A stretch of 32,769 bases of DNA. It comes from Lachnospiraceae bacterium. GTDB taxonomy: Bacteria; Bacillota; Clostridia; Lachnospirales; Lachnospiraceae. The DNA is taken from positions 1 through 32,769 of the forward strand of contig JAQXVT010000009.1 of NCBI GenBank assembly GCA_029225065.1, read 5' to 3'. The notes below the pieces were generated by a model. It did no database searches. It worked only from the letters and a program-made list of their open reading frames with translations, and was not told the origin of the DNA. Shown here piece by piece: positions 2,201-32,291 of this stretch; the first letter of the stretch is position 1, and every line of letters begins with the position of its first letter. The translations under genes were made by a program, and so were the position numbers.

Positions 2201-2228
2201 GTGAAGCAGTTGTCAATGTCTGCTTTAC
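2201..2228 (+). repeat. dispersed hairpin repeat, copy 1
   Basis: GTGAAGCAG (2201-2209) pairs with CTGCTTTAC (2220-2228) through nine pairs including one G-U, around a 10-nt loop. The copy lies 23 bp from the IS right end. Confidence 0.6.
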
Positions 2229-2260
2229 AATGTCGTCTGACAGCTGAAAGAAAAAATGAG

Positions 2261-2296
2261 AGAGGAAAGTTCCGAAAGTGGAACTTTTCTCTTTTT
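2261..2296 (+). terminator. strong intrinsic terminator, possibly bidirectional
   Basis: AGAGGAAAGTTCC (2261-2273) pairs with 2280-2292 over 13 bp with one G-U, followed by TTTTT. On the opposite strand the hairpin is followed by TTTTTT within a few bases. No plus-strand gene precedes it in the window, so it probably ended a gene to the left that the IS has separated from its terminator. Confidence 0.8.
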
Positions 2297-2413
2297 GTTT
2301 CTGTATCAGGTTTATTTTGTTTCTAAAATAGTATAGGATAAGACTGCACCGGTAGAAGACTGCATCTGGATCATACCGTCCTGCTTGCAGCTGGATTCCT
2401 GGGAATTTTGTCG

Positions 2414-2445
2414 ACAGTGAAGCGAATTGCGGGGATCTGCTCTGA
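2414..2445 (+). repeat. dispersed hairpin repeat, degenerate copy 2
   Basis: GACAGTGAAGCGAATTGC followed by GGGGATCTGCTCTGA aligns with the repeat consensus, but the stem is largely broken. It is recognised by sequence rather than structure. Confidence 0.4.
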
Positions 2446-2486
2446 TATAATAGAAAAAAACTGTGCAAAAAAATGCATGTTTTCGG

Positions 2487-2515
2487 TTGACAATGAAATA
2501 CATAATTGATAATAT
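2487..2515 (+). promoter_or_regulatory. orphan sigma-A promoter upstream of recA
   Basis: TTGACA (2487-2492), a 17-nt spacer and TAATAT (2510-2515) form a near-consensus promoter. No credible gene begins in the next 350 nt until recA, so it may drive a long recA leader or a small RNA. Confidence 0.65.
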
Positions 2516-2565
2516 ATGATATATAAAAATAATTAGCAACATTAAAAGAAGATATGAGATGAAAA

Positions 2566-2672
2566 CGGCTTGTGGATGCAGGGACTTTGGAAAAATCGCT
2601 GTTGCTTTTGCGCAGGATCAGGGTCGGGCCTGAAAGATCGTAAGATGAAAGCCGCCTGAGGGCGAAGTCCTT
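2566..2672 (+). other. possible structured leader or RNA with interleaved stems
   Basis: CGGCTT (2566-2571) can pair with AAGCCG (2649-2654), and AGGGACTT (2580-2587) with AAGTCCTT (2665-2672). The two pairings interleave, which would be a pseudoknot. A small hairpin, TCAGG/CCTGA (2618-2622 with 2629-2633), lies between. The stems are short enough to arise by chance. Confidence 0.25.
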
Positions 2673-2687
2673 ATGGTTTTGCAGACT

Positions 2688-2717
2688 GTGAAGCAGATTG
2701 CAGATATCCGCCTTGAC
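2688..2717 (+). repeat. dispersed hairpin repeat, copy 3
   Basis: GTGAAGCAGATTGCAGATAT followed by CCGCCTTGAC matches the consensus. Similarity with the copy at 9183 extends about 20 nt upstream through CTTATG and TGCA. Confidence 0.6.
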
Positions 2718-2813
2718 CTGAGCCATGAAAGTATCTTTGCGGGACGAATATTCATTTTGGCGAAAGCAGATTTGACTGTGAAGAGAAAAGGCTGGAAAAA
2801 AAAACAGAAACAC

Positions 2814-2842
2814 TTGACAAGAATGTCAATGTATATTATTAT
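2814..2842 (+). promoter_or_regulatory. recA promoter
   Basis: TTGACA (2814-2819), a 17-nt spacer and TATTAT (2837-2842) lie about 40 nt upstream of the recA start codon, immediately before the LexA box. Confidence 0.85.
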
Positions 2843-2853
2843 AAAGCAAGATA

Positions 2854-2867
2854 CGAACGTGAGTTCG
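2854..2867 (+). promoter_or_regulatory. LexA (SOS) operator of recA
   Basis: CGAACGTGAGTTCG has the perfect half-sites of the Gram-positive SOS box, CGAAC-N4-GTTCG. It lies just downstream of the -10 element, where bound LexA would block transcription, and ends one base before the AAAGGAG ribosome binding site. Confidence 0.92.
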
Positions 2868-2881
2868 AAAGGAGAAAAGAT

Positions 2882-4030
2882 ATGGTACAGGAAGAAAAAT
2901 TAAAAGCATTAGATGCTGCGCTTGCGCAGATTGAAAAACAGTTTGGAAAAGGTTCCGTGATGAAGCTCGGAGATTCCGGAGCCAATATGAATATCGAGAC
3001 GGTACCGACCGGTTCCCTCAGCCTTGATATTGCGCTGGGACTCGGCGGAGTGCCGAAAGGACGTGTCGTAGAGATCTACGGTCCGGAGTCCAGCGGTAAG
3101 ACGACCGTAGCGCTTCATATGGTCGCAGAGGTACAGAAGCGCGGCGGGATTGCAGGCTTTATCGATGCAGAGCATGCACTTGACCCGGTCTATGCAAAAA
3201 ATATCGGTGTGGATATCGACAATCTTTACATTTCACAGCCGGACAACGGCGAGCAGGCGCTTGAAATCACGGAGACGATGGTGCGTTCCGGAGCAGTGGA
3301 CATTATTATCGTGGATTCTGTTGCAGCACTTGTACCGAAGGCAGAGATCGACGGCGATATGGGAGATTCCCATGTCGGATTGCAGGCACGTCTGATGTCA
3401 CAGGCACTCAGAAAGCTAACCGGTATCATCAGCAAGTCAAACTGTACGGTTATTTTTATCAACCAGCTGCGTGAGAAGGTTGGCATCATGTTCGGAAATC
3501 CGGAGACGACAACCGGCGGACGTGCACTGAAATTCTACTCGTCGATCCGTATGGATGTGCGAAGAATTGAGTCACTGAAGCAGGGCGGAGAGGTGATCGG
3601 AAACCGCACAAGAGTTAAGGTCGTAAAGAACAAGATTGCGCCGCCGTTTAAGGAAGCGGAGTTTGACATCATGTTCGGAAAGGGAATTTCCAGAGAAGGC
3701 GATGTACTGGATCTGGCAGCCAATATCAACGTCATCAACAAGAGCGGAGCATGGTATGCCTACGAAGGAAGCAAGATCGGACAGGGACGTGAGAATGCCA
3801 AGGTATATCTGAGAGAGCATCCGGAGATTATGAAAGAGGTAGACCGCAAGGTGCGTGAGCACTACGGACTGATTCCGTCGGAGGAAGCGGCGCAGCCGGA
3901 GGAGAAAACGGCAGGAAAGCCGGTGAAAGAGCTGAAATCTGTCACGGGAAACTGCATTGAGCAGGCGGAAGCAAAGCCGGAGGCAGCTTTAAATACAGAC
4001 AAGAACGATGCATCTGATCAGCAGAATTGA
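2882..4030 (+). CDS. recA: recombinase RecA
   Basis: RecA forms the ATP-dependent filament on single-stranded DNA that drives homologous recombination and triggers LexA self-cleavage. The 382-residue protein has the N-terminal oligomerisation helix, the Walker A motif GPESSGKT at residues 67-74, the Walker B strand ([16 protein letters not shown]), and the invariant loop [20 protein letters not shown]. The C-terminal tail is longer than in many RecA proteins and rich in E, K and A (about the last 50 residues). The start has AAAGGAG seven bases upstream. Control by SOS is shown by the LexA box between promoter and start codon. recX overlaps its 3' end, so the two form an operon. Confidence 0.98.
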
Positions 4031-4649
4031 GAAACGCTCCTCCGGCAGGTATCAAATCCTGCTGGAGGGGGAGGATTCCTTTCCACTCTACGTTAAAGAG
4101 CTGAGGCAGTATGGCATAGAAGAAGGCGGTATGCTGGAAGATCAGGCATATGAGGAGATTATGCGGGAACTTTTGCCTGTGCGGGCAAAGAAAAAAGCGC
4201 TGTATCTTCTGGAGCGGATGGACCGCACAGAGCAGCAGCTGTATAGAAAGCTGACAGAGGGCGGCTATCCGGAAACGATCGCAAGAGAGGCGGTCGACTA
4301 TGTGAAAAGCTATCATTATATTGATGATGTGCGGTATGCCACGGTCTATATCGAGAGCAGGAGGGCGACGAGAAGCCTGCGGCAGATCGAGCGGGAGCTG
4401 TACCAGAAGGGGATTGCAAAAGAGGACTTTCAGTGTGCGGCTGCGCAGCTGGAAGCACCGGATGAGGAACGGCAGATCCGCAGCTGGATAGAGAAAAAGG
4501 GTTTTTGCGTGTCGCGGGCAGACCGGAAAGAGACAGATCGCTTTATCCGTTTCCTGCTGTACCGTGGCTATGGAATGAGTGTGATTCAGAAAGTGTTAAG
4601 AGAATGCGCTGAGTTCGAGAATGAAAACGTTGAGTTGCACAAAAATTGA
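4008..4649 (+). CDS. recX: regulatory protein RecX
   Basis: RecX binds RecA filaments and limits their activity. The 213-residue protein has the helical tandem-repeat pattern of the family, including the typical [21 protein letters not shown] segment and the pair YIDDVRYA and [14 protein letters not shown]. The start overlaps the last 23 nt of recA in another frame and has no clear Shine-Dalgarno sequence of its own, which suggests translational coupling to recA and therefore induction by the same LexA-controlled promoter. Its length is usual for Firmicutes RecX. No terminator is evident before the rny promoter. Confidence 0.9.
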
Positions 4650-4667
4650 AAACAGGGGCACAATTAC

Positions 4668-4696
4668 TTGACACATTTACCAAAACAGTATAAAAT
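4668..4696 (+). promoter_or_regulatory. rny promoter
   Basis: TTGACA (4668-4673), a 17-nt spacer and TAAAAT (4691-4696) precede rny by about 50 nt. Confidence 0.75.
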
Positions 4697-4743
4697 TGAA
4701 GTGTTGTTTACGGACAATGAAAATTGAATAAGGAGGTGCTCCT

Positions 4744-6297
4744 GTGCCTGTAGTGACGATTATAATTGCTGTTATAATCACTCTGGTTATTGCAGTTCCG
4801 GTTAGCGGTCTTGTTGCCGTCAACTACCGCAAAAAGGTAGTGGAAGCAAAGCTCGGCAGTGCGGATGAAAAAGCAAGACAGATAATCGACGATGCGCTCA
4901 AGGTTGCAGAGACAAAAAAGCGTGAGGCACTTCTGGAAGCGAAGGAAGAATCTTTGAAGACGAAAAATGAGTTGGAAAGAGAGACGAGAGAACGCAGAAC
5001 AGAATTGCAGCGCTATGAGAAGCGAGTACTGTCAAAGGAAGAAAGTGTTGATAAGAAAGCCGATGCTCTGGAGCGGAGAGAGTCAGGGATCACAGCAAAG
5101 GAAGAAGAGCTAAAGAAGAAGAACGCAGAAGTAGAGAAGCTTCGCGGTCAGCGTATTCAGGAACTCGAAAGAATCTCAGGACTTACCTCTGAACAAGCAA
5201 AAGAATATCTTTTAAAAACTGTTGAAGATGAAGTAAAAATTGACACTGCAAAGCTTTACAAAGAGCTGGAGAGCAGAGCAAAAGAAGAAGCAGGTAAAAA
5301 AGCAAAGGAGTACGTGGTCACGGCGATTCAGAAATGTGCAGCAGACCACGTAGCAGAGACCACAATCTCTGTAGTTCAGCTTCCAAACGATGAGATGAAA
5401 GGACGAATCATCGGAAGGGAAGGAAGAAATATCCGGACACTTGAGACCCTTACCGGTGTAGATCTGATTATTGATGATACCCCGGAAGCAGTTATCTTGT
5501 CAGCTTTTGATCCGATCAGAAGAGAGGTAGCGAGAATCGCCCTCGAAAAACTGATTGTTGATGGCAGAATCCATCCGGCCAGGATCGAAGAGATGGTAGA
5601 AAAAGCACAGAAAGAAGTAGAGACAATCATTCGTGAGGAAGGTGAAGCTGCGACACTGGAAGTTGGTGTACATGGCATTCATCCCGAACTGGTACGTCTG
5701 CTTGGTCGAATGAAATTCAGAACAAGCTACGGTCAGAACGCATTGAAGCACTCGATCGAGGTTGCACAGCTTGCCGGGCTGCTTGCAGGTGAGGTCGGAG
5801 CTGACGTGAGAATGGCCAAACGTGCAGGATTGTTGCATGACATCGGGAAATCCATCGACCATGAAATTGAAGGCTCCCATGTTCAGATCGGTGCAGACCT
5901 TTGCCGGAAGTACAAAGAGTCTCCGATCGTTATCAATGCGGTAGAATCACATCATGGTGATGTTGAAGCAGAATCACTGATTGCCTGTATTGTACAGGCT
6001 GCTGATACGATTTCAGCGGCCCGTCCGGGAGCAAGACGTGAGACACTTGAAACATATACAAACAGATTAAAACAGTTGGAAGATATTACAAATACCTTTA
6101 AGGGTGTTGAGAAATCATTTGCTATTCAGGCAGGTAGAGAGATTCGAGTAATGGTAGTTCCGGATCAGGTCAATGATGCGGACATGGTACTTCTGGCAAG
6201 AGATATCGCAAAGCAGATCGAGGCAGAACTGGAATATCCAGGACAGATCAAGGTCAGTGTTATCCGCGAGAGCCGGGTAGTCGATTACGCGAAATAA
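4744..6297 (+). CDS. rny: ribonuclease Y
   Basis: RNase Y is the membrane-anchored endonuclease that starts bulk mRNA turnover in Firmicutes. The 517-residue protein has all expected parts in order: an N-terminal transmembrane helix (residues 3-26), a long charged coiled coil (about 30-190), a KH RNA-binding domain with [10 protein letters not shown] at 220-229, and an HD metal-dependent nuclease domain with HD at 365-366 ([12 protein letters not shown]). It starts at GTG, supported by AAGGAGGTG ending five bases upstream; this strong site compensates for the non-ATG start. It has its own promoter and a strong downstream terminator, so it is probably monocistronic. Confidence 0.96.
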
Positions 6298-6303
6298 GAA
6301 ACG

Positions 6304-6347
6304 GAACAGTATGGCTGGAAAATGGTCATACTGTTCTTTTTTATTTT
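6304..6347 (+). terminator. rny terminator
   Basis: GAACAGTATG (6304-6313) pairs perfectly with CATACTGTTC (6327-6336), followed by a T-rich tract with six consecutive Ts. Confidence 0.92.
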
Positions 6348-6377
6348 TAAGATACCTTATTTTTAAGAAAGCTTTGC

Positions 6378-6406
6378 GTGACAAAAATAGGATTTCCGAT
6401 TATACT
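6378..6406 (+). promoter_or_regulatory. promoter of the secreted-protein gene
   Basis: GTGACA (6378-6383), a 17-nt spacer and TATACT (6401-6406) lie 50 nt upstream of the start at 6456. Confidence 0.65.
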
Positions 6407-6455
6407 GTAGAAAGATAAAAGGTCTGTTTTAGATTGAAATTTAGGAGACGGTTTT

Positions 6456-7040
6456 ATGAATAAAGAAATTCGAAAAAAAATGGTCTGTACGGCGGCCATT
6501 CTTGGCCTCTCGCTTGGAGCACTGTCTTCTGGCAGCTTCCAGATGGAAAGCGCGGTGGCGCTGGCAGAAGAGAATGCTTCGGCTGCCATGACAGGCAGTT
6601 ATTCTGTAGACTCTGCCTGGGTCAGGATAGAGCAAAAGAGTGATACAGAAAAAGAAGTTTATAAGCAGGAAGGAAGCCAGGACATAGAGGAGACCTCGGA
6701 GATCACCTGCAGCTATCTCGATACGAATTATTCCGTGGCTGAGTATGAACATCTCAGAGACATGCTGACTAACAATCTGATGTACAGTGATGTGAAGGCG
6801 CAGATCAGTACAAGCGCCGGATATACCGATGCGAAAGATTATCTCTATACACTGACTGCAGATGACAGCGACAAGGAATACCAGGATATCTATTATTACG
6901 TGGTAGGGGATTACAGATGCTTCTGTGTGACGGTGCGCGAATACCGGGAGGAAGCTGCGCAGGCAGACTCACCAGATGATACACCGCAGGCGGTCGGAAA
7001 AAAGGCGGCGCAGGAATTTACCTGGGATCAGCAGGAATGA
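6456..7040 (+). CDS. secreted protein of unknown function
   Basis: The 194-residue product begins with a basic n-region and a hydrophobic core ending near ALA-EEN (about residue 37), a type I signal peptide. There is no lipobox cysteine. The mature part is acidic, rich in D, E, S, T and Y, with two cysteines (SYLDTNY and RCFCV regions) but no recognisable catalytic motif; the YQDIYYYVVGDYRCFCVTVREY segment looks like a beta hairpin. AGGAGACGG lies upstream of the ATG. It follows the rny terminator and has its own promoter, and is followed by the 88-nt repeat structure, so it is probably transcribed alone. I do not recognise a family. Confidence 0.75.
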   Translation: MNKEIRKKMVCTAAILGLSLGALSSGSFQMESAVALAEENASAAMTGSYSVDSAWVRIEQKSDTEKEVYKQEGSQDIEETSEITCSYLDTNYSVAEYEHLRDMLTNNLMYSDVKAQISTSAGYTDAKDYLYTLTADDSDKEYQDIYYYVVGDYRCFCVTVREYREEAAQADSPDDTPQAVGKKAAQEFTWDQQE

Positions 7041-7067: not shown

Positions 7068-7155
7068 TTTAACCGAGTCAAGCAAATAGCGAAGCGGATT
7101 GCGAATATCCGCTTTGACTGGTTTGCGCAACAGAGGATTTGCTGATTCGGTTAAA
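7068..7155 (+). repeat. dispersed hairpin repeat, copy 4: 88-nt nested structure
   Basis: The outer arms 7068-7087 and 7137-7155 pair over 19 bp with one G-U and one bulged A. Inside, GAAGCGGAT (7091-7099) pairs with ATCCGCTTT (7107-7115) around loop TGCGAAT. This is the most regular copy in the window. It lies between the secreted-protein gene and nudC, ending 26 nt before the nudC TTG start. Confidence 0.8.
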
Positions 7156-9094: not shown

Positions 9095-9114
9095 GTTATG
9101 TTAGAACGTGAAAT

Positions 9115-9209
9115 ATCATAAGGAAGGATCCATTTACGGGAAGATTCCCTATGAGCATTGATCCCTTATGATCCTGCAAGCAGTGAAGCAGATTGTGGAT
9201 ATCTGTTTG
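9115..9209 (+). repeat. dispersed hairpin repeat, copy 5, with upstream hairpin
   Basis: An upstream hairpin pairs ATCATAAGG (9115-9123) with CCTTATGAT (9164-9172) and GATC with GATC inside. It is followed by the conserved small hairpin AAGCAGAT (9186-9193) with ATCTGTTT (9201-9208). Confidence 0.65.
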
Positions 9210-9266
9210 GATAAAATAGTACAGAGCAGGAATGCATCGTGAAAAAAGAAGAGAAAGGAGAAATTC

Positions 9267-10673
9267 ATGTATCGCGATAAAATTGATGCATATATCGACA
9301 GTAAAAAGGAAGAAATGCTGGAAGATCTGATGACGCTGGTGCGGATCGACAGCCAGAGAGGTGAGGCGAAGCCGGACATGCCGTTTGGCGAAGGACCGGT
9401 ACGGGCGCTGGAAGCTGCGCAGGACCTGATGAAAAAGTACGGACTTGCGACAAAAAATTATGAGAATTACGTAGTGACCGGAGATTTCAGCGAGGAAGAG
9501 AAGGCACTCGATATTCTGGCACATCTGGATGTTGTGCCGGTGACAGAGGACTGGACAGTAACGAAACCGTTTGAGCCGAAGATCGTGGATGGAAAGATTT
9601 ACGGCAGAGGAACGGCGGACGACAAGGGACCGGCGATTGCTGCGCTGTATGCGCTCCGCGCGATTCGGGAGCTTGGCATTCCGATGAAAAAAAGCGTGCG
9701 CCTGATTCTCGGCTCGGACGAGGAGTGCGGCTCCGGCGATCTGGAGTATTACTATGCAAAGGAGCAGGAAGCACCGTATACCTTTACACCGGATGCGGAT
9801 TTCCCGCTGATAAATATTGAAAAAGGAAGCTTTCACGGCGTATTTTCCGCAAAATTAAACGAAGAGGGCAAAGCATGCGTGCGTTCTTTTCAGAGTGGAG
9901 ATAAGATCAATGTTGTGCCGGGCCGGGCTTCCATGACCGTGGACGGTGTGGCAGAGGATGTGATCCGTGCAGCGGCAGAAAAGACAGCGACGGAGACTGG
10001 CGTGTCCTTCCAGGTGACATCACTTGCGGACGGCGGCATTCAGATTGACGCGAAAGGACAGGCAGCGCATGCATCAACACCGGAAGAAGGAAAAAATGCG
10101 CTGACAGCGACACTGCAGCTCATCTCAGAGCTTCCGCTTGATGAGAGCAAAGGAAGAGAAGCGCTGCTCGGACTGCATGCCATGTTCCCATATGAGGATA
10201 CCTGCGGAAAAACCGTCGGTATTTACCGGGAAAACGAGGAGTCAGGGGCAGTGACTGTCTGCTTCAGTATCATGGATTATACAAAAACCAATCTGCATGC
10301 GGCCTTTGATGCCCGGCTTCCGATCGGCTGCAATGAGGAGAACACGAAGCTTCCGGTGAAAGCAGCGGCAGAAAAGTATGGAATGGAACTGGAAGACCTT
10401 CCACTGAACCCGCCGCACTGTGTACCGGGTGATTCCTGGTTTGTACAGACGCTGCTTGGCAGCTATGAGCGGTATTTCGGCAAGAAGGGCAAACCGCTTT
10501 CAACCGGCGGCGGCACCTACGTACATCACCTCGAGCGCGGCGTGGCGTTTGGCTGCATGACAGAGGATGTGGATAACCATATGCACGGAGATGATGAGTT
10601 TATGGTGATCGAGCGTCTTCTGACGAGTGCGAAGATTTTTGCGGATGCGATCGTAAAAATCTGCAATGCGTGA
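9267..10673 (+). CDS. pepV: M20 dipeptidase PepV (Sapep family)
   Basis: PepV is a cytoplasmic di-zinc dipeptidase that releases amino acids from dipeptides. The 468-residue length is typical. The metal-binding pattern is visible: H86 and D88 in HLDVVP, the bridging aspartate in GRGTADDKGP (D118/D119), the catalytic glutamate pair in SDEECGSGD, an Asp in TPDADFP, and a C-terminal His in the segment around HMHGDDE. AAAGGAG lies just upstream of the ATG. It has no co-directional partner within 100 nt on either side; the riboswitch promoter begins 16 nt after its stop. Confidence 0.92.
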   Translation: MYRDKIDAYIDSKKEEMLEDLMTLVRIDSQRGEAKPDMPFGEGPVRALEAAQDLMKKYGLATKNYENYVVTGDFSEEEKALDILAHLDVVPVTEDWTVTKPFEPKIVDGKIYGRGTADDKGPAIAALYALRAIRELGIPMKKSVRLILGSDEECGSGDLEYYYAKEQEAPYTFTPDADFPLINIEKGSFHGVFSAKLNEEGKACVRSFQSGDKINVVPGRASMTVDGVAEDVIRAAAEKTATETGVSFQVTSLADGGIQIDAKGQAAHASTPEEGKNALTATLQLISELPLDESKGREALLGLHAMFPYEDTCGKTVGIYRENEESGAVTVCFSIMDYTKTNLHAAFDARLPIGCNEENTKLPVKAAAEKYGMELEDLPLNPPHCVPGDSWFVQTLLGSYERYFGKKGKPLSTGGGTYVHHLERGVAFGCMTEDVDNHMHGDDEFMVIERLLTSAKIFADAIVKICNA

Positions 10674-10717: not shown

Positions 10718-10730
10718 GTCAGAAGAATAA

Positions 10731-10815
10731 AAACGGGGAGGCCATGGGCCTGAGAGTAAACCGTACGGTTTTGACCCTTTGAACCTGATACAGATCATAC
10801 TGGCGAAGGAAAATA
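10731..10815 (+). ncRNA. TPP riboswitch (THI element)
   Basis: The conserved blocks appear in order: GGGGAG, GGGCCTGAGAG, GACCCTTTGAACCTGAT, and ATACTGGCGAAGGAAA. The CTGAGA motif (10750-10755) and the ACCCTTTGAACCTGAT block are the parts that read the pyrimidine and pyrophosphate of TPP. It controls the downstream transporter, expected to be switched off when TPP is plentiful. Confidence 0.95.
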
Positions 10816-10868
10816 GTGACTGCAAAAGCAGAGATGATCTCTTGTGTTTTTTGTGTGCAAGAAAAAAT

Positions 10869-11127: not shown

Positions 11128-11931
11128 ATGGCGGGCGGAATGAGCAGGAAAGGAACAGACAACATGAAAAAAATAACGAACGCAGCTCCGATTTTTGTGA
11201 TTGTGGTGCTGATGATTATCTGGGAGAGTGTGGTACAGATCGCGGGGATTCCGCTGTATGTACTCCCGGCGCCGAGCGATATGCTGCGTACCTTTGTGAC
11301 GGAGTTTCCGGTGCTGCTCGGACATGCCGGTGTGACGGTGATGGAGGCGCTTGCGGGAATGGCGATCTCATTTGTGATCGGCGTGGTGATCGGAATTCTG
11401 ATCGATGCGCTTCCTCTTTTTAAAAAGTGCATTTACCCGATTCTTGTGGTGACGCAGACGGTTCCGGTCATTGTATTGGCGCCGATCTTCATTATTTATA
11501 TGGGCTTTGGCTATGCCCCAAAAATTCTGACGGTGGTGCTGATGTGCTTTTTCCCGATTGTCATCAGCTTCAGTGACGGGCTTGGAGAGATGGATGCCGG
11601 CTATCGAAATCTGGTGAGGACATACGGTGGCTCGACCTTTCAGGTTTATCGTCTGGTCAAGATTCCATCCGCGATGATCTCACTGCTGTCCGGCCTGAAA
11701 GTTGCGGCGACGTACAGCATAAGCGGAGCGGTGGTCGGAGAATGGATTGCATCGCAGAGCGGCTTGGGCTACTATCTGATCCGTGCAAAAAACGGATATA
11801 TGCTGGACAAGGTATTTGCCTGCGTATTGATGATTATTTTGCTTAGTCTCCTGATGAATGGAGCGGTGAAGCTGTTTGGGTATCTGATGATGCCGGCGAG
11901 AAGGAAACAGGGCGCGAAGGGACAGGTATAG
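11128..11931 (+). CDS. thiX: thiamine-precursor ABC transporter permease (ThiX-like)
   Basis: This integral membrane protein of 267 residues has about six transmembrane segments and the EAA-type loop contacting the ATPase (YRNLVRTYGGSTFQVYRLVKIPSAM). It belongs to the nitrate/taurine/thiamine-pyrimidine permease family. The upstream TPP riboswitch and the neighbouring THI5-like binding protein make a thiamine pyrimidine precursor the likely cargo. An in-frame ATG at 11164 (MKKITNA) has AGGAAAGGAA upstream and sits right before the first membrane helix, so it may be the true start. ThiY and ThiZ homologues follow on the same strand. Confidence 0.85.
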   Translation: MAGGMSRKGTDNMKKITNAAPIFVIVVLMIIWESVVQIAGIPLYVLPAPSDMLRTFVTEFPVLLGHAGVTVMEALAGMAISFVIGVVIGILIDALPLFKKCIYPILVVTQTVPVIVLAPIFIIYMGFGYAPKILTVVLMCFFPIVISFSDGLGEMDAGYRNLVRTYGGSTFQVYRLVKIPSAMISLLSGLKVAATYSISGAVVGEWIASQSGLGYYLIRAKNGYMLDKVFACVLMIILLSLLMNGAVKLFGYLMMPARRKQGAKGQV

Positions 11932-12113
11932 CGCATATTTTGTATAAGGACAGGCGAACAGTAGAAAAATGCATGAAATTCCAGATGGATTTTCATAGAG
12001 AGCGGCAGTGGTACAGGTATTTGCTTGCCGCAAAAAAGAGAGTTGTATTAAAAAATGCAGATGATGGAAAGATTGTCTGCATTTCCGGCAATCCCGGAGA
12101 GAAGGAGGAAAAC

Positions 12114-13112
12114 ATGAAAAAAGTATGGAAGACAACAGCAGTCCTGACGGCAGCAGTGCTGGCCATGGGAATGACAACGGCAGCATTTGCACAGGAGGAT
12201 GCGGCGGAACTGAAAAAAGTAACGGTAATTCTGGATTACGTACCGAATACAAATCATACCGGAATGTATGTAGCACTTGATAAAGGCTATTATGAGGAGG
12301 AAGGGCTGGATGTGGAGATCATCGAGCCGACCGACGGAGCAACTGCGACGCTGATCGCACAGCAGAAGGGTACCTTTGGCATCAGCTATCAGGAGGATGT
12401 AACGATTGCGCTGACCGCAGAGGATCCGCTTCCGATCAGGGCAGTTGCAACACTGATTCAGCACAATACATCCGGTTTCGTGTCGCTTGCGGACAGCGGA
12501 ATCGAATCTCCGGCTGATTTTGAGGGAAAGACGTATGCAGGCTGGGGCGGACCGGGAGAGTCAGCCGTTCTCGAAGCGTGCATGACGCAGGCTGGAGCCG
12601 ATTTTTCCAAACTGAATATTGTGGTTTCGGATGGAAGCGGTTTTGAAGCACTTGGAAAGAGCTGTGATCTGATGTGGTTCTTCGAGGGCTGGGATTGTAT
12701 TATGGCATCTATGAATGACTGCGCATTGAATTATATGGAGCTGCGTCAGCTCGATGAGCGTCTTGATTACTATACGCCGGTCATTATTACGAGCGATGCG
12801 GTAATTGATGAGGATCCGGAGATGGTATCAGCATTCCTGCGTGCGACGGAAAAAGGATATAAGGATGCAATCGCAGATCCGGATGCAGCGGCAGAGGTGC
12901 TTTCTTCCCATGTGCCGGATTACGATCCGGAGATGCTGAAGCTTTCCCAGGAGTATCTGGCAGATAAATATATGGAAGATACAGAAGTATGGGGTGAGAT
13001 GAAGGACGAAGTATGGGATAACTATACGGCCTTCCTGCAGGAGTATGGCGTAATTGACAAGGCGCTTCCGGCATCGGACTGCTACACAAATGAATTCCTG
13101 GCACAGAACTGA
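12114..13112 (+). CDS. thiY: thiamine-precursor binding protein (NMT1/THI5-like, ThiY)
   Basis: This 332-residue periplasmic-type binding protein has the NMT1/THI5 fold pattern (VTVILDYVPNTNHTGMYVALDKGYYEEEGLDVE near the mature N-terminus). Family members bind HMP or formylaminopyrimidine. The start at 12114 has GAAGGAGG at a good distance; a longer in-frame reading from 11940 is rejected because it would bury the signal peptide. The signal peptide ends AAFA-QE, a type I site, with no lipobox cysteine, which is unusual for a Gram-positive binding protein. It lies between permease and ATPase in one operon under TPP control. Confidence 0.9.
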   Translation: MKKVWKTTAVLTAAVLAMGMTTAAFAQEDAAELKKVTVILDYVPNTNHTGMYVALDKGYYEEEGLDVEIIEPTDGATATLIAQQKGTFGISYQEDVTIALTAEDPLPIRAVATLIQHNTSGFVSLADSGIESPADFEGKTYAGWGGPGESAVLEACMTQAGADFSKLNIVVSDGSGFEALGKSCDLMWFFEGWDCIMASMNDCALNYMELRQLDERLDYYTPVIITSDAVIDEDPEMVSAFLRATEKGYKDAIADPDAAAEVLSSHVPDYDPEMLKLSQEYLADKYMEDTEVWGEMKDEVWDNYTAFLQEYGVIDKALPASDCYTNEFLAQN

Positions 13113-13190
13113 TATCGAAAAATCAGAAATGAAACACAGCATCGCGGCAAGGAGAAATGGATAAATACAGCGAGAGGAACGAGCGGAAGA

Positions 13191-13919
13191 ATGAGACTGG
13201 AAGTAAAAAATCTGAATTTTGCCTACGGAGATAAAACAATTTTAAAGGATCTGTCGTTTACAGTGGAAGACGGTGAATTTATCAGCCTCCTCGGACCGTC
13301 AGGCTGTGGAAAATCGACGCTTTTGAATGTCCTGGCCGGGATTCTGACACCGGAAAGCGGGCAGATCTGCATTGATGGAAATGAAATGCACGGAATCAGC
13401 AGCCAGTTTGCTTATATGCCGCAAAATGATTTCCTTTTTCCATGGAAAACGATTCTTGATAATGTCTGCCTATATGGCGAGATTCATCATCGGAAAAAGG
13501 AAATGAAAGAGGAGGCGCGCCGCCAGATGGCGAGGTTTGGTCTGGAGGGCTGTGAAAATAAGTATCCGTCCGAGCTTTCCGGCGGAATGCGCCAGAGAGC
13601 AGCCTTTCTCCGTACGACACTTTGTGAGGCAAATATCTACCTTCTGGATGAGCCGTTTGGTGCGCTGGATGTGATTACGCGCGGCGATATGCAGGACTGG
13701 CTGCGGGAGCTTGGCGGCAATCTGAAAAAGACGACGCTGCTGGTCACGCACGATACCGACGAAGCGATTTATCTGTCTGATCGGATTCTGATTCTTGGTG
13801 CATCGGGAGAGGGAATCCGCCGCGAGATCCGGATTGAAGAGAAGGAGCGGACGCGGGAGTGGCTGTATCGGCAGGGTGCGCTGCGGGAAGAAATTCATCA
13901 TGTGATCAAAAATAAGTGA
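13191..13919 (+). CDS. thiZ: thiamine-precursor ABC transporter ATPase (ThiZ-like)
   Basis: This 242-residue ATPase powers the ThiXY transporter. Walker A is GPSGCGKST at 35-43, the Q-loop lies near MPQNDFLFPW, the ABC signature is LSGGM at 129-133, and Walker B ends with D153-E154 in LLDEPFGALD; the switch histidine is in LLVTHDTDEA. It belongs to the SsuB/TauB/ThiZ group. GGAAG lies close to the ATG. It is third in the riboswitch operon, 78 nt after thiY, and no strong terminator separates it from the TatD-like gene. Confidence 0.9.
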   Translation: MRLEVKNLNFAYGDKTILKDLSFTVEDGEFISLLGPSGCGKSTLLNVLAGILTPESGQICIDGNEMHGISSQFAYMPQNDFLFPWKTILDNVCLYGEIHHRKKEMKEEARRQMARFGLEGCENKYPSELSGGMRQRAAFLRTTLCEANIYLLDEPFGALDVITRGDMQDWLRELGGNLKKTTLLVTHDTDEAIYLSDRILILGASGEGIRREIRIEEKERTREWLYRQGALREEIHHVIKNK

Positions 13920-21851: not shown

Positions 21852-21978
21852 TTTAACCGAGTCAGGCAAATCCCCTGCAGGGGGTGAGGAGCAACGAGCA
21901 GTAGATAACTTGCTTATATCAGGAGTGGTACAAGACATTTCTGATAAGATGCGAAGTGAATTGCGAATATCCGCTTTG
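21852..21978 (+). repeat. dispersed hairpin repeat, copy 6, long form
   Basis: It starts with the same 20-nt box as copies 4 and 7 (TTTAACCGAGTCAGGCAAAT), then a perfect 12-bp palindrome (21872-21883). GAGCAACGAGCAGTAGATAA follows, then a hairpin TATCAG/CTGATA (21917-21922 with 21941-21946) with inner AGTG/CATT, and last the conserved core 21951-21978. It fills most of the gap between pgsA and pncC. Confidence 0.75.
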
Positions 21979-22057
21979 ATCAAAGAAAAATGAGCTGAAA
22001 AAATGGCAGCCAGAAAAAGAAAGTAAGAAATTCAGGCAGAAAGGAGCAGAAACAGCC

Positions 22058-24419: not shown

Positions 24420-24475
24420 TTTAACCGAGTCAAGCAAATTCCCTGCGAGGCCCCGGATTGCGAATACCCGCTTTG
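24420..24475 (+). repeat. dispersed hairpin repeat, copy 7
   Basis: It has the 20-nt box TTTAACCGAGTCAAGCAAAT (24420-24439), identical to the left arm of copy 4, then a diverged core CCGGATTGCGAATACCCGCT. It lies between two minus-strand genes. Confidence 0.65.
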
Positions 24476-24485
24476 GTTTTCTTGC

Positions 24486-26900: not shown

Positions 26901-28277
26901 CTATCTGTTTGCAAAGAATTTATCATAAAGGCCGAACGCGAAGATAAAAAGAACGACGATCGGCAGAATGTACGTCAGGTAGAAACGCATCCAGTTCTGC
27001 ACCTTCAGGCCTTTGCCGGTATTGGCTTCTCTGGTATAATTCTTCCATCCCCAGCCGCGCTTTGAAACGCAGAAGAGCAGATAAACGAGGGAGCCGAGCG
27101 GCAGAAACAGATTACTGACGAGAAAATCTTCGAGGTCGAGGACTGCACCGCCGAAAATTGCGAATCCGTCCCAGCTCCACAGATTGTAGCCGAGCACGCA
27201 CGGAATCGAGAGCAGCGTAATGAGTACGAAGTTGACAGCGGAAGCTTTCTTTCGTGTCCAGCCGGTCAGCTCCATTCCGCAGCAGATGATATTCTCAAAA
27301 ACAGCGAACACGGTCGACAGTGCGGCGAACGACATGAAGAGGAAGAACAGACTTCCCCAGAGACATCCGAGCGGCATGTTTGCAAAAATGTTCGGCAATG
27401 TGATGAAAATCAGGCTCGGGCCGGAGGTTTGGTCGACGTTGTAGGTGAAGCAGGCCGGGAAAATAATCAGCCCTGCGGTGATTGCAACGAAGGTATCCAG
27501 AATGACAATGCGAAGGGATTCGCCGAGCAGCGTATGCTCTTTTCCGATGTAGCTGCCGAAGATCGCCATTGCACCGACACCAAGGCTTAAGGTAAAGAAT
27601 GCCTGATTCATGGCACTTACAAGCGTATTGACAATTCCGGTTTCTTTCATGCGGGCAAAATCCGGGATCAGATAAAAGCGAAGGCCCTCTTTGGCACCGG
27701 ACATGAAAAAGCTGTTGACTGCGAGGACAATCATGATGGCGAGCAGTGCAATCATCATAATTTTAGTGATTTTTTCCAGACCATTCTGCAGTCCTTTTGC
27801 ACAGACGATGATGCCGAGCGCGACGACAACGACCATCCAGAAGGTCATAGTGGCCGGATCTCCGAGCGTTTCCGTGAACTTTCCGGCTACAGCCAGGGAA
27901 TCCAGTCCGGAGAGCTTTCCTGTGAGTGTCAGATAAAAATAATGAAGCATCCATCCGGCAACGGTGGTGTAGAACATCATCAGCAGATAACAGCCGATCA
28001 GTGTGAAATAGCCGTGAATGTGCCATTTCTGCCCCGGCTTTTCAAGTGCCTGATAAGCCTTGACCGGACTTTTCTGGCTGGCACGTCCGACTGCAAATTC
28101 CATGCTCATGATCGGAAGTCCAAGCAGAACCAGAAATACAATGTAAAAGAGGACGAAAGCACCGCCGCCTCCCTGTCCGGCAATATACGGAAATTTCCAT
28201 ACATTACCGATTCCGATGGCGCATCCTGCAGAGAGCAGAATAAAGCCAAGACGGGATTTGAGTTTTTCTCTTTCCAT
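26901..28277 (-). CDS. neurotransmitter:sodium symporter (NSS/SNF) family transporter
   Basis: This 458-residue integral membrane protein has about eleven to twelve transmembrane segments and the LeuT-fold signature of the first helix, SAGCAIGIGNVWKFPYIAGQGGGGAF, whose unwound region binds sodium and substrate. Bacterial members take up amino acids such as leucine, tryptophan or tyrosine with sodium. The substrate cannot be assigned here. AAGGAG lies upstream of the ATG. It is transcribed alone, divergent from uppP, with its own terminator. Confidence 0.93.
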   Translation of the reverse strand: MEREKLKSRLGFILLSAGCAIGIGNVWKFPYIAGQGGGGAFVLFYIVFLVLLGLPIMSMEFAVGRASQKSPVKAYQALEKPGQKWHIHGYFTLIGCYLLMMFYTTVAGWMLHYFYLTLTGKLSGLDSLAVAGKFTETLGDPATMTFWMVVVVALGIIVCAKGLQNGLEKITKIMMIALLAIMIVLAVNSFFMSGAKEGLRFYLIPDFARMKETGIVNTLVSAMNQAFFTLSLGVGAMAIFGSYIGKEHTLLGESLRIVILDTFVAITAGLIIFPACFTYNVDQTSGPSLIFITLPNIFANMPLGCLWGSLFFLFMSFAALSTVFAVFENIICCGMELTGWTRKKASAVNFVLITLLSIPCVLGYNLWSWDGFAIFGGAVLDLEDFLVSNLFLPLGSLVYLLFCVSKRGWGWKNYTREANTGKGLKVQNWMRFYLTYILPIVVLFIFAFGLYDKFFANR

Positions 28278-28412
28278 AAAATAAATCTCCTTAAGATAAA
28301 ATGCGGTTTTTTCTTTTTGTGCATACAGTGGGAAAATACGCAGATAAAAGAAACGATATTATAAAATTCTACCATAAGCGAAACAGGAATACAATGAAAA
28401 ATCCTGCATAGC

Positions 28413-28466
28413 TTGTAAAAAGAAAATTATTGTGGTATCTTATCTCATAGCTATCATAGCGATAAG
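28413..28466 (+). promoter_or_regulatory. candidate promoter and operator of uppP
   Basis: TTGTAA (28413-28418), a 17-nt spacer and TATCTT (28436-28441) form a weak promoter. Overlapping the -10 is the inverted repeat CTTATC (28439-28444) and GATAAG (28461-28466), which encloses the direct repeat TCATAGC (28445-28451 and 28454-28460). It may be a regulator site. Confidence 0.4.
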
Positions 28467-28492
28467 TAAAAGTAAAGAGAGGACAGCTTATT

Positions 28493-29347
28493 ATGATTGA
28501 GTTTTTAAAGGCATTCCTGTTCGGAATCGTGGAGGGAATTACGGAATGGCTTCCGATCAGCAGCACAGGTCATATGATTCTGCTGAATGAGTTTGTCAAA
28601 CTGGATGTTTCAGATGATTTTTACAGTATGTTTGAGGTCGTGATCCAGCTGGGTGCGATTATGGCGGTTGTGATTTTGTTCTGGAACGATATTTTTCCGT
28701 TTGGAAAACCGGAGGGCCGCCGCAGAAGACATTCGGTGCGCGGAATTCAAAGATATATAAAGCCGGATATTTTTCTGCTGTGGGCGAAGATCCTGGTAGC
28801 CTGTGTTCCGGCCGCGATTGTCGGGATTCTGTTTAATGACCTTTTTGAGGCGCTGTTTTACAACTATATCACGGTTGCGATCATGCTCATCCTGTTTGGT
28901 GTTGCATTCCTGATCGTGGAAACACGCCATAAAGGCAAGCCGGCAAAGGTGAATTCGCTCGGAGAGCTTACTTTTAAAACGGCATTTCTGATCGGTATCT
29001 TTCAGCTGATCGCAGCAATTTTCCCGGGTACATCCCGTTCCGGTGCAACAATCGTCGGCGCGCTGATGCTCGGTGTATCGCGAACCGTAGCTGCAGAATT
29101 TACCTTTTTCCTTGCAATTCCAGTCATGTTTGGAGCAAGCCTCCTGAAAATATGGAAATTTGGCCTCGTCTTTACCCAGACAGAGATGGTAATCCTGCTG
29201 ATCGGTATGGTAACTGCGTTTGTATCGTCGCTGTTTATCATCCGTTTTCTGCTTGGGTATATTAAAAAGCATGACTTCAAAGTGTTTGGTTATTACCGGA
29301 TCGTGCTCGGCATTCTGGTGTGCCTGTATTTCTTCTTTGGAAAATAA
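28493..29347 (+). CDS. uppP: undecaprenyl-diphosphate phosphatase UppP (BacA)
   Basis: UppP removes a phosphate from undecaprenyl diphosphate to recycle the lipid carrier for cell-wall synthesis; extra copies give bacitracin resistance. The 284-residue membrane protein has both active-site motifs: GIVEGITEWLPISSTGH at 11-27 and PGTSRSG at 178-184. An extra basic loop (PEGRRRRHSVRG) follows the second helix. GAGAGG lies upstream of the ATG. It ends in a clear terminator and is monocistronic. Confidence 0.96.
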   Translation: MIEFLKAFLFGIVEGITEWLPISSTGHMILLNEFVKLDVSDDFYSMFEVVIQLGAIMAVVILFWNDIFPFGKPEGRRRRHSVRGIQRYIKPDIFLLWAKILVACVPAAIVGILFNDLFEALFYNYITVAIMLILFGVAFLIVETRHKGKPAKVNSLGELTFKTAFLIGIFQLIAAIFPGTSRSGATIVGALMLGVSRTVAAEFTFFLAIPVMFGASLLKIWKFGLVFTQTEMVILLIGMVTAFVSSLFIIRFLLGYIKKHDFKVFGYYRIVLGILVCLYFFFGK

Positions 29348-29352
29348 AAAAC

Positions 29353-29387
29353 AAAGATCTCTGCCTGCGGGTGGGGATCTTTTTATT
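29353..29387 (+). terminator. uppP terminator
   Basis: AAAGATCTC (29353-29361) pairs with GGGATCTTT (29374-29382) including one G-U, followed by a TTTTATTT tract. Confidence 0.85.
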
Positions 29388-29471
29388 TAACCGGGTATCA
29401 GAAGTGGCTTGTACCATTCCTGATACCCGGTTATGAGCAAGTAACGAAGCGGACCTGGAATATCCGCTTTG
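29388..29471 (+). repeat. dispersed hairpin repeat, copy 8, double hairpin
   Basis: TAACCGGGTATCAG (29388-29401) pairs perfectly with 29420-29433. After one mismatch, AGTGG/CCATT continues the stem to a 6-nt loop. The second hairpin is the conserved core, CGAAGCGGA (29445-29453) with TCCGCTTTG (29463-29471), nine pairs including one G-U. Confidence 0.8.
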
Positions 29472-29477
29472 ATTTTC

Positions 29478-29504
29478 ACGATCCAGAAAGAAATACATAC
29501 CATA
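29478..29504 (+). promoter_or_regulatory. sigma-K-like promoter of the second subtilisin
   Basis: AC (29478-29479), 16 nt, and CATACCATA (29496-29504) match AC-N16-CATANNNTA exactly, 50 nt before the start codon. Confidence 0.6.
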
Positions 29505-29554
29505 TTTTATAAAGAAGAAAATGAGCAGCCTGCCGGGCGGGAGAGGGAGCGGTT

Positions 29555-30445
29555 ATGGACCGGGTGAGGGAAATGCTGCATGCGGATGAGCTGCACCGAA
29601 GAGGAGTCACAGGAAGAGGCGTTAATGTGGCAATTCTGGATACCGGGATCTGTGCACATCCGGATTTTGACAGGCGGATCGTTGCGTTTTATGATTTTGT
29701 AAACGGGAAAAAAATCATGTACGATGATGCCTCACATGGAACACATGTTGCCGGAATCCTCGGGGGAAATGGCGGACTTGGGAAGGGAAGATACAGGGGA
29801 ATCGCGCCTGAATGCGGTTTGATCAGTCTGAAGGTGTTGGATCGTTTTGGACAGGGAAGGCTGGAGTACCTGATTGCGGCGCTTGACTGGGTGTGCACAA
29901 ACCATCAGAAGTATAAAATCCGCATTCTGAATATTTCAGCAGGAACGACGAAGGAGGAGGGGAACGAGGAATCATTTCGCCTGGTGCAGTGCGTGGAAAA
30001 AGTGTGGGATCTGGGAATTACGGTGGTCGTAGCGGCTGGAAATCAGGGGCCGGAGCCAAAGAGTATTACCGTTCCGGGCAACAGCAGAAAGGTGATTACG
30101 GTGGGGGCGTCAGATGATTTCAGGAAAAAACCAAAGTGGGGGAGTGTCAGCTATTCGGGCTGCGGGCCGACAATGGAGTGTGTGTGCAAGCCGGAACTGG
30201 TAGCACCGGGAACAGAGATTGTTTCCTGTTATTCCAGGTGGAAAAGCGGGCGGTATTATGCGGCAAAGAGCGGCACTTCAATGGCTGCGCCGGCAGTGGC
30301 AGGTGGTGCTGCATTGCTTCTGGAACGAGAGCCATACCTGACAAATATGCAGATCAAAATGCGGATGAAAGCATGTGCAAGGGATTTGGGACTTCTGCAT
30401 AACCGTCAGGGGTGGGGAATGCCGGATCTTGGAAAGCTGTTTTGA
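29555..30445 (+). CDS. subtilisin-like (S8) serine protease without signal peptide
   Basis: This 296-residue protease is a compact, complete subtilase: D29 (AILDTGICAHP), H61 (SHGTHVAG), oxyanion N163 (AAGNQGPEP) and S242 (SGTSMAAP). There is no signal peptide and only a very short N-terminal stretch before the catalytic domain, as in intracellular AprX-like enzymes. The ATG follows GGGAGAGGGAG. A sigma-K-like promoter upstream points to mother-cell expression during sporulation, where it could process coat proteins; this is inference. It is distinct from the Csp-like enzyme at 24486-26171, sharing only the catalytic domain. Confidence 0.9.
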   Translation: MDRVREMLHADELHRRGVTGRGVNVAILDTGICAHPDFDRRIVAFYDFVNGKKIMYDDASHGTHVAGILGGNGGLGKGRYRGIAPECGLISLKVLDRFGQGRLEYLIAALDWVCTNHQKYKIRILNISAGTTKEEGNEESFRLVQCVEKVWDLGITVVVAAGNQGPEPKSITVPGNSRKVITVGASDDFRKKPKWGSVSYSGCGPTMECVCKPELVAPGTEIVSCYSRWKSGRYYAAKSGTSMAAPAVAGGAALLLEREPYLTNMQIKMRMKACARDLGLLHNRQGWGMPDLGKLF

Positions 30446-30513
30446 GTGCAGACCGTGAAAAAAATGAGAATGTCTGCTTTCCTGTTGCGTTGTGCATGCA
30501 GGGGATATTTCGT

Positions 30514-30542
30514 TTGACGGAAGCAGAAGAAAATGATAGAAT
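30514..30542 (+). promoter_or_regulatory. icd promoter
   Basis: TTGACG (30514-30519), a 17-nt spacer and TAGAAT (30537-30542) lie about 50 nt upstream of icd. Confidence 0.8.
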
Positions 30543-30589
30543 GATACACAAAATTGCAGACGCACAGGAAAAAGAGGAGGAACACTTTT

Positions 30590-31798
30590 ATGGAAAAAAT
30601 AAAGATGACGACACCACTTGTTGAGATGGATGGTGACGAGATGACCAGAATCCTCTGGAAAATGATCAAGGACGAACTGATCTATCCGTATATCGATCTG
30701 AAAAGCGAATACTATGATCTGGGACTGGAACATCGAAACGAAACGAATGATCAGGTGACCATTGACAGTGCAAACGCGACAAAGAAATATGGCGTTGCGG
30801 TAAAATGCGCGACGATTACGCCGAATGCAGCCAGAATGAAGGAGTATGAACTGAAAGAGATGTGGAAGAGCCCGAATGGTACAATTCGTGCGATTCTGGA
30901 TGGAACGGTATTTCGTGCACCGATCACGGTAAAGGGAATTGAGCCGTATGTGAGAAGCTGGAAGAAGCCGATCACGATTGCACGTCATGCTTATGGCGAT
31001 GTATATAAAAATACCGAGATGATTGTTCCGGGAGCAGGAAAGGCAGAGCTTGTATTTACCGCGGAGGATGGAACAACCAGCAGGGAAACGATTTTTGAAT
31101 TTAAGGGGCCGGGCGTACTTCAGGGAATGCATAATCTGGATAAATCGATCGAGAGCTTTGCAAAGAGCTGCTTTAACTATGCGCTTGATACAAAGCAGGA
31201 TCTCTGGTTTGCGACAAAGGACACGATTTCCAAGAAATACGATCACACGTTCAAGGATATCTTCCAGGAAATTTTTGACCGCGACTATAAAGAAAAATTT
31301 GAAAAAGCAGGAATTACTTATTTCTATACACTGATTGACGATGCAGTAGCCCGTGTGATGAAATCAGAAGGCGGTTTTATCTGGGCGTGCAAGAATTATG
31401 ACGGAGATGTCATGAGTGATATGGTATCCTCGGCATTTGGTTCTCTTGCAATGATGACTTCCGTGCTGGTATCTCCGGATGGAAACTATGAATATGAGGC
31501 GGCGCATGGTACCGTTCAGCGTCATTATTATAAGTATCTGAAGGGCGAGGAAACCTCAACAAACTCTGTGGCAACGATTTTCGCATGGACGGGTGCGCTC
31601 AGAAAAAGAGGAGAACTGGATGGTCTTTCGGAACTTCAGGACTATGCGGAGCGGATGGAAAAAGCTGTGATTGCTACGATCGAGAGCGGAAAAATGACGA
31701 AAGATCTGGCACTGATTACTTCCCTTGAGAACGTGACCGTGTTAAACAGTGAGGACTTTATCAAGGCGGTACGTGCGACGTATGAAAGTCTTGTATAG
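30590..31798 (+). CDS. icd: NADP-dependent isocitrate dehydrogenase (eukaryotic-like type)
   Basis: This 402-residue enzyme oxidises isocitrate to 2-oxoglutarate with NADP+, supplying the carbon skeleton for glutamate. Sequence features match the dimeric type found in eukaryotes and some bacteria: [19 protein letters not shown] at the N-terminus, the substrate loop [19 protein letters not shown], and [24 protein letters not shown] with the NADP-selecting histidine and arginine. The start at 30590 has AGAGGAGGA eight bases upstream; the frame open from 30554 is not used. Neither citrate synthase nor aconitase is adjacent. 6S RNA follows. Confidence 0.95.
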
Positions 31799-31860
31799 AA
31801 TGGGATAGGCTTTATATCAATCTGTATAAATCTGGAATCTCAATTTTTATGAAAAATGGG

Positions 31861-31889
31861 TTGCGGAACTGCATATACTAGAGTATAAT
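31861..31889 (+). promoter_or_regulatory. 6S RNA promoter
   Basis: TTGCGG (31861-31866), a 17-nt spacer and TATAAT (31884-31889) predict a transcript start near 31896. Confidence 0.7.
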
Positions 31890-31895
31890 CAAAGT

Positions 31896-32093
31896 CATCA
31901 GACAATAGCATATATTCCTGGGGTGTTCGACAATCTCTGTGTTTTGAACCTACATTTACTTTAAACGGGATTCCTATATTGCGCAGTGTATGCCAGGCCT
32001 CCGTTCGCAGTGGAAGGCAGAAACTGTTGCTGCGGTTACCCACCTAGCTTTGCTAGGAGTCAAAAATGGGGAAACGGCACTCTGGGGTATTAA
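31896..32093 (+). ncRNA. ssrS: 6S RNA
   Basis: 6S RNA binds housekeeping RNA polymerase by mimicking an open promoter. The ends pair as ATATTCC/GGGGTAT and GGGTG/CACTC, and the 5' arm carries GGGGTGTTCG, matching the GAGATGTTCG of E. coli 6S. The 3' half has GGCAGAAACTG, then the side hairpin ACCTAGC-TTT-GCTAGG and GGCACTCTGGGG, in the same order as the E. coli AAAACTGCGACG, CACCTTGAACC hairpin and GGCATCTCGGAG. The GAACC...GGGATTC bubble edge is also present. The length of about 198 nt fits. A promoter precedes it. This recognition is by comparison from memory, not by covariance search. Confidence 0.8.
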
Positions 32094-32120
32094 AAAAGAA
32101 AATAAAATAATGAAAAACAG

Positions 32121-32200
32121 ATCGGATATCAGGAATTCTTGATATCCGATTATTATGTTCCTGAGTAAGTGGCAAACGCAGATTGTAAATGTCTGCTTTA
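32121..32200 (+). repeat. dispersed hairpin repeat, copy 9, double hairpin
   Basis: A 30-nt near-perfect palindrome (32121-32150; arms ATCGGATATCA and TGATATCCGAT around GAATTC) is followed by GAGTAAGTGGCAAACGCAGA and TCTGCTTTA. The second hairpin pairs GCAGA (32178-32182) with TCTGC (32192-32196). The first hairpin may end the 6S transcript. Confidence 0.65.
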
Positions 32201-32236
32201 TAGTTTTACAAATGCTGTCGGGGGAGATAAATACGC

Positions 32237-32291
32237 CGCAGAGATTTAGCTGCGAACAAGTAGCAAAGCGTATTACAAATATCAGATTTGA
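32237..32291 (+). repeat. dispersed hairpin repeat, copy 10, degenerate
   Basis: A small hairpin CGCAG/CTGCG (32237-32241 with 32250-32254) leads into GAACAAGTAGCAAAGCGTAT and ATCAGATTTGAC, which aligns with the consensus but has lost most pairing. Confidence 0.45.

Follow-up and report, generated by a model that had tools for sequence, protein, structure and literature searches.

The stretch analyzed here, referred to as the window, comprises positions 1 to 32,769 of contig JAQXVT010000009.1 (32,769 nucleotides [nt] in all) from a Lachnospiraceae bacterium (GenBank assembly GCA_029225065.1). It carries recA, a 6S RNA, and a 16S rRNA gene and, between its genes, copies of a short, hairpin-forming repeat. 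These copies belong to a real, structured, and very probably mobile repeat family.

Repeat copies in the window

A first-pass annotation made from the window's sequence had listed ten copies sharing a core hairpin, all lying between genes and in one orientation. Ungapped matching with the 29-mer GCGAAGCGGATTGCGAATATCCGCTTTGA finds eight sites with 22 to 29 of 29 bases identical, all on the plus strand; the best score on the minus strand is 18, and ten random sequences with the dinucleotide frequencies of the window reach at most 19. A covariance model (R1), trained on 56 copies with these eight among them, recovers all but one of the ten listed sites at E ≤ 3e-4, every one on the plus strand. 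One of the nine recovered, the 32121 copy (core 32160-32202), did not contribute to the training set. Membership of the tenth, at 2201, is unsupported (E 2.5). The single orientation is borne out for the other nine. The location between genes is likewise borne out, as none of the eight scored copies overlaps a gene by simple open reading frame (ORF) calls. The nine R1 members form one family; the exact core pattern, GAAGCGGAT-loop-ATCCGCTTT, occurs in the window only at 7091, most copies being decayed. The copies are listed below, with modules named as in the intact element described in the next section.

2189-2229, plus strand: listed 2201 copy, membership unsupported (R1 8.4 bits, E 2.5)
2405-2446, plus strand: 3' module, decayed copy, upstream of recA (R1 31.1 bits, E 2.4e-6; 22/29)
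2676-2717, plus strand: 3' module, decayed copy, upstream of recA and 3' of a CATAAGG-type hairpin remnant (R1 39.8 bits, E 1.2e-8; 24/29)
7068-7117, plus strand: 50-nt short form from TTTAACC to CTTTGA with exact core (R1 60.6 bits; 29/29; spacing 21 form)
9106-9212, plus strand: CATAAGG hairpin module (about 9106-9170, placed by eye) and 3' module 9171-9212 (R1 42.7 bits)
21852-21980, plus strand: longest window copy, with 5' end, degenerate P2 and P3, and 3' module 21939-21980 (R1 46.8 bits)
24420-24477, plus strand: short copy, internal deletion (R1 27.7 bits, E 2e-5)
29386-29473, plus strand: fused P1+P3 hairpin and 3' module (R1 44.6 bits)
32118-32202, plus strand: fused P1+P3 hairpin at about 32118-32151, then a diverged 3' module at 32160-32202 (R1 23.3 bits, E 2.9e-4)
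32251-32292, plus strand: 3' module, decayed copy, ahead of rRNA promoters (R1 38.8 bits; 23/29)

An Rfam scan of the window at gathering and permissive thresholds returned no family covering the repeat copies; a match to STnc500 over 9161-9279 was at chance level (E 4). The copy at 29386-29473 lies directly 3' of an intrinsic-terminator-like hairpin (29353-29382). The 6S RNA (31912-32092) immediately precedes two copies of the repeat together with the rRNA operon. Two tandem promoter-bearing repeats that are 78% alike (32315-32364 and 32411-32460) precede the 16S gene at 32634, and a DDE_Tnp_1 transposase gene (340-2043, minus strand) adjoins the copies upstream of recA.

The intact element and its covariation

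Intact elements in relatives measure about 143 to 179 nt, start with TTTAACC, and end with CTTTGAY. Both ends are sharp: T occupies the two positions preceding AACC at 35 of 38 left ends, and Y follows TTTGA at 61 of 68 right ends, beyond which conservation stops. In the predicted fold, helix P1 (AACCGAAT/ATTCGGTT) encloses P2, P3, and P4 in a four-way junction without an unpaired base. The junction is followed by the conserved 3' module, GAGCAAGTAGCGAAGCGGATTGCGAATATCCGCTTTGA. One element (L040) folds 9.65 standard deviations (SD) lower than its shuffles as RNA and 11.3 SD lower as DNA.

Among 12 full-length copies from seven genomes, 95.4% of alignment cells pair, and both partners vary in 21 of 60 pairs. 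Double changes fill 50 cells, compared with 14.1 ± 2.9 in shuffles (none of 500 reaches this value) and 2 to 7 with slid partners, in a set whose structure was derived from one of its own sequences, four of whose rows come from one genome, and two of whose rows (L188 and L242) were shortened by chosen coordinates. The covariation anticipated in the first-pass annotation is thus seen between genomes. The 3' hairpin is nearly invariant among the 12 copies and for this reason yields no covariation signal.

The accompanying claim that the upstream hairpin varies completely in sequence was overstated, since the two arms quoted for it, CCGGGTATCAG and TCGGATATCAG, share 9 of their 11 letters. Read side by side, both differing positions are compensated on the opposite arm, with one additional wobble pair. 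The two quoted hairpins are fused P1+P3 remnants of the longer element. Left ends and cores within 170 nt of each other form 40 pairs, 17 of which share the one spacing that defines the 50-nt form, a product of internal deletion, probably between AGCAAGT repeats. A few copies have an extra CATAAGG hairpin. A candidate autonomous version with genes between the ends was rejected: for 85 left-end matches, the next core lies within 163 nt (40 cases) or at least 842 nt away, with no recurring larger size.

Abundance and decay in the own genome

Across all 88 contigs (3.18 Mb) of the genome that contains the window (the own genome), the 29-mer occurs 90 times at up to three mismatches, and its reversed form never. 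Over 1.465 Mb of this genome, taken from 14 contigs or parts of contigs, 183 copies match at 20 or more of 29 positions, compared with a single control hit. These copies are largely intergenic: with genes called by a simple codon-usage script instead of a standard gene finder, 161 are clear of predicted genes, and of the 22 that overlap one, 20 lie within 82 nt of the ORF end. The intergenic share of the DNA is about 15%.

Within the 183 copies, single changes in the core stem preserve the pair in 208 of 506 cases; slid controls do so in 240 of 513, 260 of 540, and 200 of 516. G-to-A changes (265) outnumber C-to-T changes (156), the opposite of what is expected for a selected RNA stem. Compensatory double changes are in slight excess (35, compared with 25.6 ± 4.3 and a maximum of 40 in 1,000 permutations). 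Selection on the structure of individual own-genome copies is therefore unsupported by pair keeping in the core stem, and these copies look like decaying repeats, with master elements that look structurally constrained. The earlier suggestion of selection on structure accordingly stands for the paired changes between genomes but not for individual copies, which decay neutrally.

Young copies and patchy distribution

Of 60 relatives, counting the own genome, three contain the core, in 90, 40, and 7 copies. R1 finds the family at E ≤ 1e-5 in 37 of 299 same-family genomes, again including the own genome, under strict filters and a ceiling of 21 scored candidates for each genome. Exact matches to the 29-mer occur in 22 stretches from seven named genomes (Lachnospiraceae bacterium, Lachnoclostridium, Clostridium sp., or Fusicatenibacter). 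The pgsA-cinA stretch contains no copy scoring 20 or more in any of the 21 congeners in which both genes were located.

Young copies sit in different flanks. Two copies in genome G065 are 99% identical, and the identity begins exactly at TTTAACC. A burst is visible in genome G081, where 20 of 21 scored places were retrieved and the 38-nt 3' module is identical in all 20. The 14 copies whose left end falls within the stretch have a mean identity of 99.1% (37 equal-length pairs) and differ in their flanks. The G+C content of the G081 element, 52%, is above that of its flanks (27 to 38%), suggesting a recent arrival. In the same genome, a second dispersed repeat adjoins several of the elements (stretches L331 to L347), and the right flank in L342 is a repeat with inverted ends, AACTAGCACAA.

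Fifteen of 50,697 phage records match the element. All are named "Bacteriophage sp." and come from human feces; the four inspected carry the mark UNVERIFIED and could be of bacterial origin. Viral contigs gave one matching stretch, and a plasmid search with the G081 element gave none. The spread of small folded repeats in Gram-positive gut bacteria has so far been little described.

Orientation relative to replication

Orientation relative to replication, a comparison proposed in the first-pass annotation, is nonrandom genome-wide in the own genome, G081, and G064. Own-genome copies at gene-neutral sites are oriented with the leading strand by 31:11 (17:6 between convergent and 14:5 between divergent genes; P = 0.003), and copies among tandem lagging genes by 6:3. 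In G081, 19 copies are leading and 1 lagging by local skew (P = 4e-5), including four of four at gene-neutral sites. In G064, the ratio is 31:5 (P = 1.3e-5), a raw count uncorrected for gene direction from which 9 of 45 copies near skew switches were set aside. The leading orientation places the strand as written on the lagging-strand template. Insertion into the lagging-strand template, with an orientation that tracks replication, is described for IS200/IS605 elements (PMC5371812, PMC6006769).

Ends, insertion sites, and mode of movement

These observations are best accounted for by a nonautonomous mobile DNA family of Lachnospiraceae-type bacteria that moves as folded single-stranded DNA in the manner of IS200/IS605, a reading to which we assign a probability of roughly 0.6. 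The element would move as a folded single strand and insert at T-rich sites in the lagging-strand template. A Y1 (HUH) transposase would be supplied in trans, and old copies would afterwards decay neutrally within intergenic DNA. We infer replication-coupled single-strand movement as the best-supported mechanism. The sharp ends, the young burst, and the strand bias in three genomes make this mechanism directly testable.

The repeat resembles nonautonomous IS200/IS605 derivatives in its lack of inverted ends and of a consistent target duplication, its right-end hairpin, and its orientation on the lagging-strand template; IS200/IS605 elements have neither terminal inverted repeats nor larger target duplications (PMC2817692). 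It differs in that its 50-nt form has no left hairpin and that none of the loci inspected holds a parent insertion sequence bearing its ends. No consistent target duplication was detected in other genomes (29 copies, z ≤ 2.4) or in G081 (14 copies, z ≤ 1.6). Targeting of terminators was tried and rejected as weak (9 of 43 own left ends, compared with 326 of 3,000 control sites, P = 0.047; 8 of 28 in other genomes and 2 of 14 in G081).

The end structure also bears on a miniature element mobilized by a DDE transposase, of the MITE or BOX-like kind, that would cut and paste through inverted ends. Such an element would likewise be short, folded, modular, and present in high copy number, and the DDE_Tnp_1 gene lies beside the copies near recA, a point in its favor by proximity. 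TTTAACC and CTTTGAY are not inverted repeats, however, and no target duplication recurs across 47 own-genome, 29 other, and 14 G081 copies, making this origin unlikely. BOX elements of Streptococcus pneumoniae are similarly modular, usually under 200 nt, strongly folded, and intergenic, but have the inverted ends and target duplications (PMC3049150) that are seen in neither respect here.

One Y1_Tnp gene is present in the own genome, and all ten Y1 proteins typed pass the IS200/IS605 cutoff while none passes that for REP transposases. A Y1 enzyme acting on the repeat is presumed. A cognate TnpA element with the same ends was sought in 30 loci, from genomes other than G081, and none was found. 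The IS200 element of the own genome (L053) has a GTAGCGAA match at its left end, a lone case that we judged to be chance.

The typing of these proteins speaks against mobilization as a REP family by a REP-associated tyrosine transposase. All 15 full-length copies of alignment A1 do have GTAG directly ahead of the 3' hairpin, and the repeat, like REP and REPIN sequences (PMC8266576), is a high-copy intergenic palindrome, with GTAG in front in a share of copies that differs between sets. Among own-genome copies matching at 24 or more of 29 positions, GTAG is found in 24 of 91 and GCAG in 25. Only 1 of 11 close pairs (≤400 nt) is inverted, so that the inverted pairs of REPINs are missing, and the modular body is larger. 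This possibility was dropped, as none of 29 Y1 loci (of 48 places) has a REP-type transposase flanked by two inverted copies, and we regard it as very improbable. Surveys of REP sequences (PMC3733652, PMC12306157) do not mention names in Clostridi- or Lachno- in the portions available. Equally remote is a retron- or intron-like route, in which an RNA would serve as the template for single-stranded DNA annealing at the replication fork. It would also predict the replication-strand bias, and the conserved GA-motif domain described below resembles a protein-binding RNA motif; nothing specific favors such a route, no search for a reverse transcriptase having been made.

Several findings weigh against IS200/IS605-like movement. 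The leading (G-rich) strand holds 145 of 183 own-genome copies, a smaller fraction than for genes (972 of 1,125), and only gene-neutral sites are therefore informative; at these sites, the ratio was 24:6 in the first ten contigs and about 7:5 in four contigs added later with retrained gene calls. Orientation with replication is also possible for other kinds of transposon (PMC5371812), and the related Clostridiales-1 family has no strand bias (37:29 in G335 and 8:6 in G296, two of four complete genomes). Across nine copy-bearing genomes (G081 not searched), 29 Y1_Tnp loci scored of 48 places include only one, L080, with a nearby copy, on one side, and two of the nine, the drafts G062 and G002, have no Y1_Tnp hit. 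Flank similarity in the own genome is weakly raised (37% compared with 25%, z reaching 4.8 at most among 56 choices of boundary in 47 copies), which is unrepeated elsewhere. Finally, a base-exact empty site was not found: the sole paralogous case, in G081, is ambiguous with about 9 nt missing at the junction, congeners and Fusicatenibacter relatives are too diverged for base-exact junctions, and the fecal phage records examined for such a site have unique flanks.

Relation to Clostridiales-1

The repeat family is related to the Rfam family Clostridiales-1 (RF01699) but is not a member. The two share a 3' domain of the form TGA-N4-...-N4-GAA with GAGCAAGTAGC/GCGGATTGCGA, a comparable size, and dispersal in multiple copies; we take the 3' module of the repeat to be homologous to the Clostridiales-1 GA-motif domain. 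The repeat elements score 25.1 (L039), 24.8 (L040), and 22.9 (L043) bits against a gathering cutoff of 48. They differ further in their upstream arms and ends, in lacking the GGATTGC...GCAATCC terminal hairpin, and in their strand bias. No Clostridiales-1 match in the own genome exceeds the cutoff; the best reaches 47.1 bits at G000:C73:84874-85016 (L054 6875-7017).

The 3' module may have two folds, of which the core hairpin of the first-pass annotation, with AAGCGGAT paired to ATCCGCTT, would be just one. The Clostridiales-1 model aligns the same letters (24.8 bits) as a helix a, a tandem GA/GA, and a helix b (GCAA/TTGC), followed by an internal loop and then a hairpin. Clostridiales-1 relatives support this GA-motif fold, and young G081 copies have a mismatch in the core stem and intact GA-motif letters. 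Neither fold stands out among own-genome copies, where single changes in helices b and c keep the pair in 152 of 433 cases and double changes number 45 (34.3 ± 5.1 expected). Helix b occurs in seven paired versions among 26 Clostridiales-1 loci (23 fully paired, one at 3/4, and two in which the pattern stopped early), a count that leans towards pairing because the best-pairing match per locus was taken; 4 of 30 loci near contig ends were dropped. In two of the 30 loci (L154 and L155), GAGCAAGTAGC and GCGGATTGCGA flank a larger hairpin.

The GA-motif domain bears on whether the repeat is a structured RNA, transcribed, duplicated, and kept by selection for a role at the RNA level such as 3' end formation, stability, or protein binding. 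In addition to this domain, common to an Rfam small-RNA family and with helix b in seven paired versions, the arms covary between genomes, the RNA fold is stable (z of -9.65 and -8.62), and copies lie mostly 3' of genes. Yet the core stem decays neutrally with G-to-A above C-to-T changes, presence among relatives is patchy, orientation at gene-neutral sites tracks the replication strand, and the DNA folds are as extreme (z of -11.3 and -10.4). Taken together, such an RNA is an improbable explanation. Covariation can stem from a mobile structure instead of a regulatory RNA.

Clostridiales-1 is found in 161 of 299 same-family genomes at E ≤ 0.001, 129 of them over the cutoff (at most nine candidates scored per genome), and the single-contig genome G335 has 66 of 80 matches over the cutoff, some in tandem. 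This suggests that a family listed in Rfam as small RNA is for the most part a dispersed repeat, a point of consequence for small-RNA annotation in these genomes; the table of its source paper, in the part available, rates it as probably RNA and not cis-regulatory. The open-access literature searched gave no account of Clostridiales-1 or the repeat as a mobile element. We tentatively suggest, at somewhat less than even odds, a superfamily of structured mobile elements widespread in the bacterial family, including Clostridiales-1 and built on one GA-motif 3' domain.

Elsewhere in the window, a TPP riboswitch (10724-10828) lies upstream of an ABC transporter set (11128-13919) that includes an NMT1/THI5-like binding protein.

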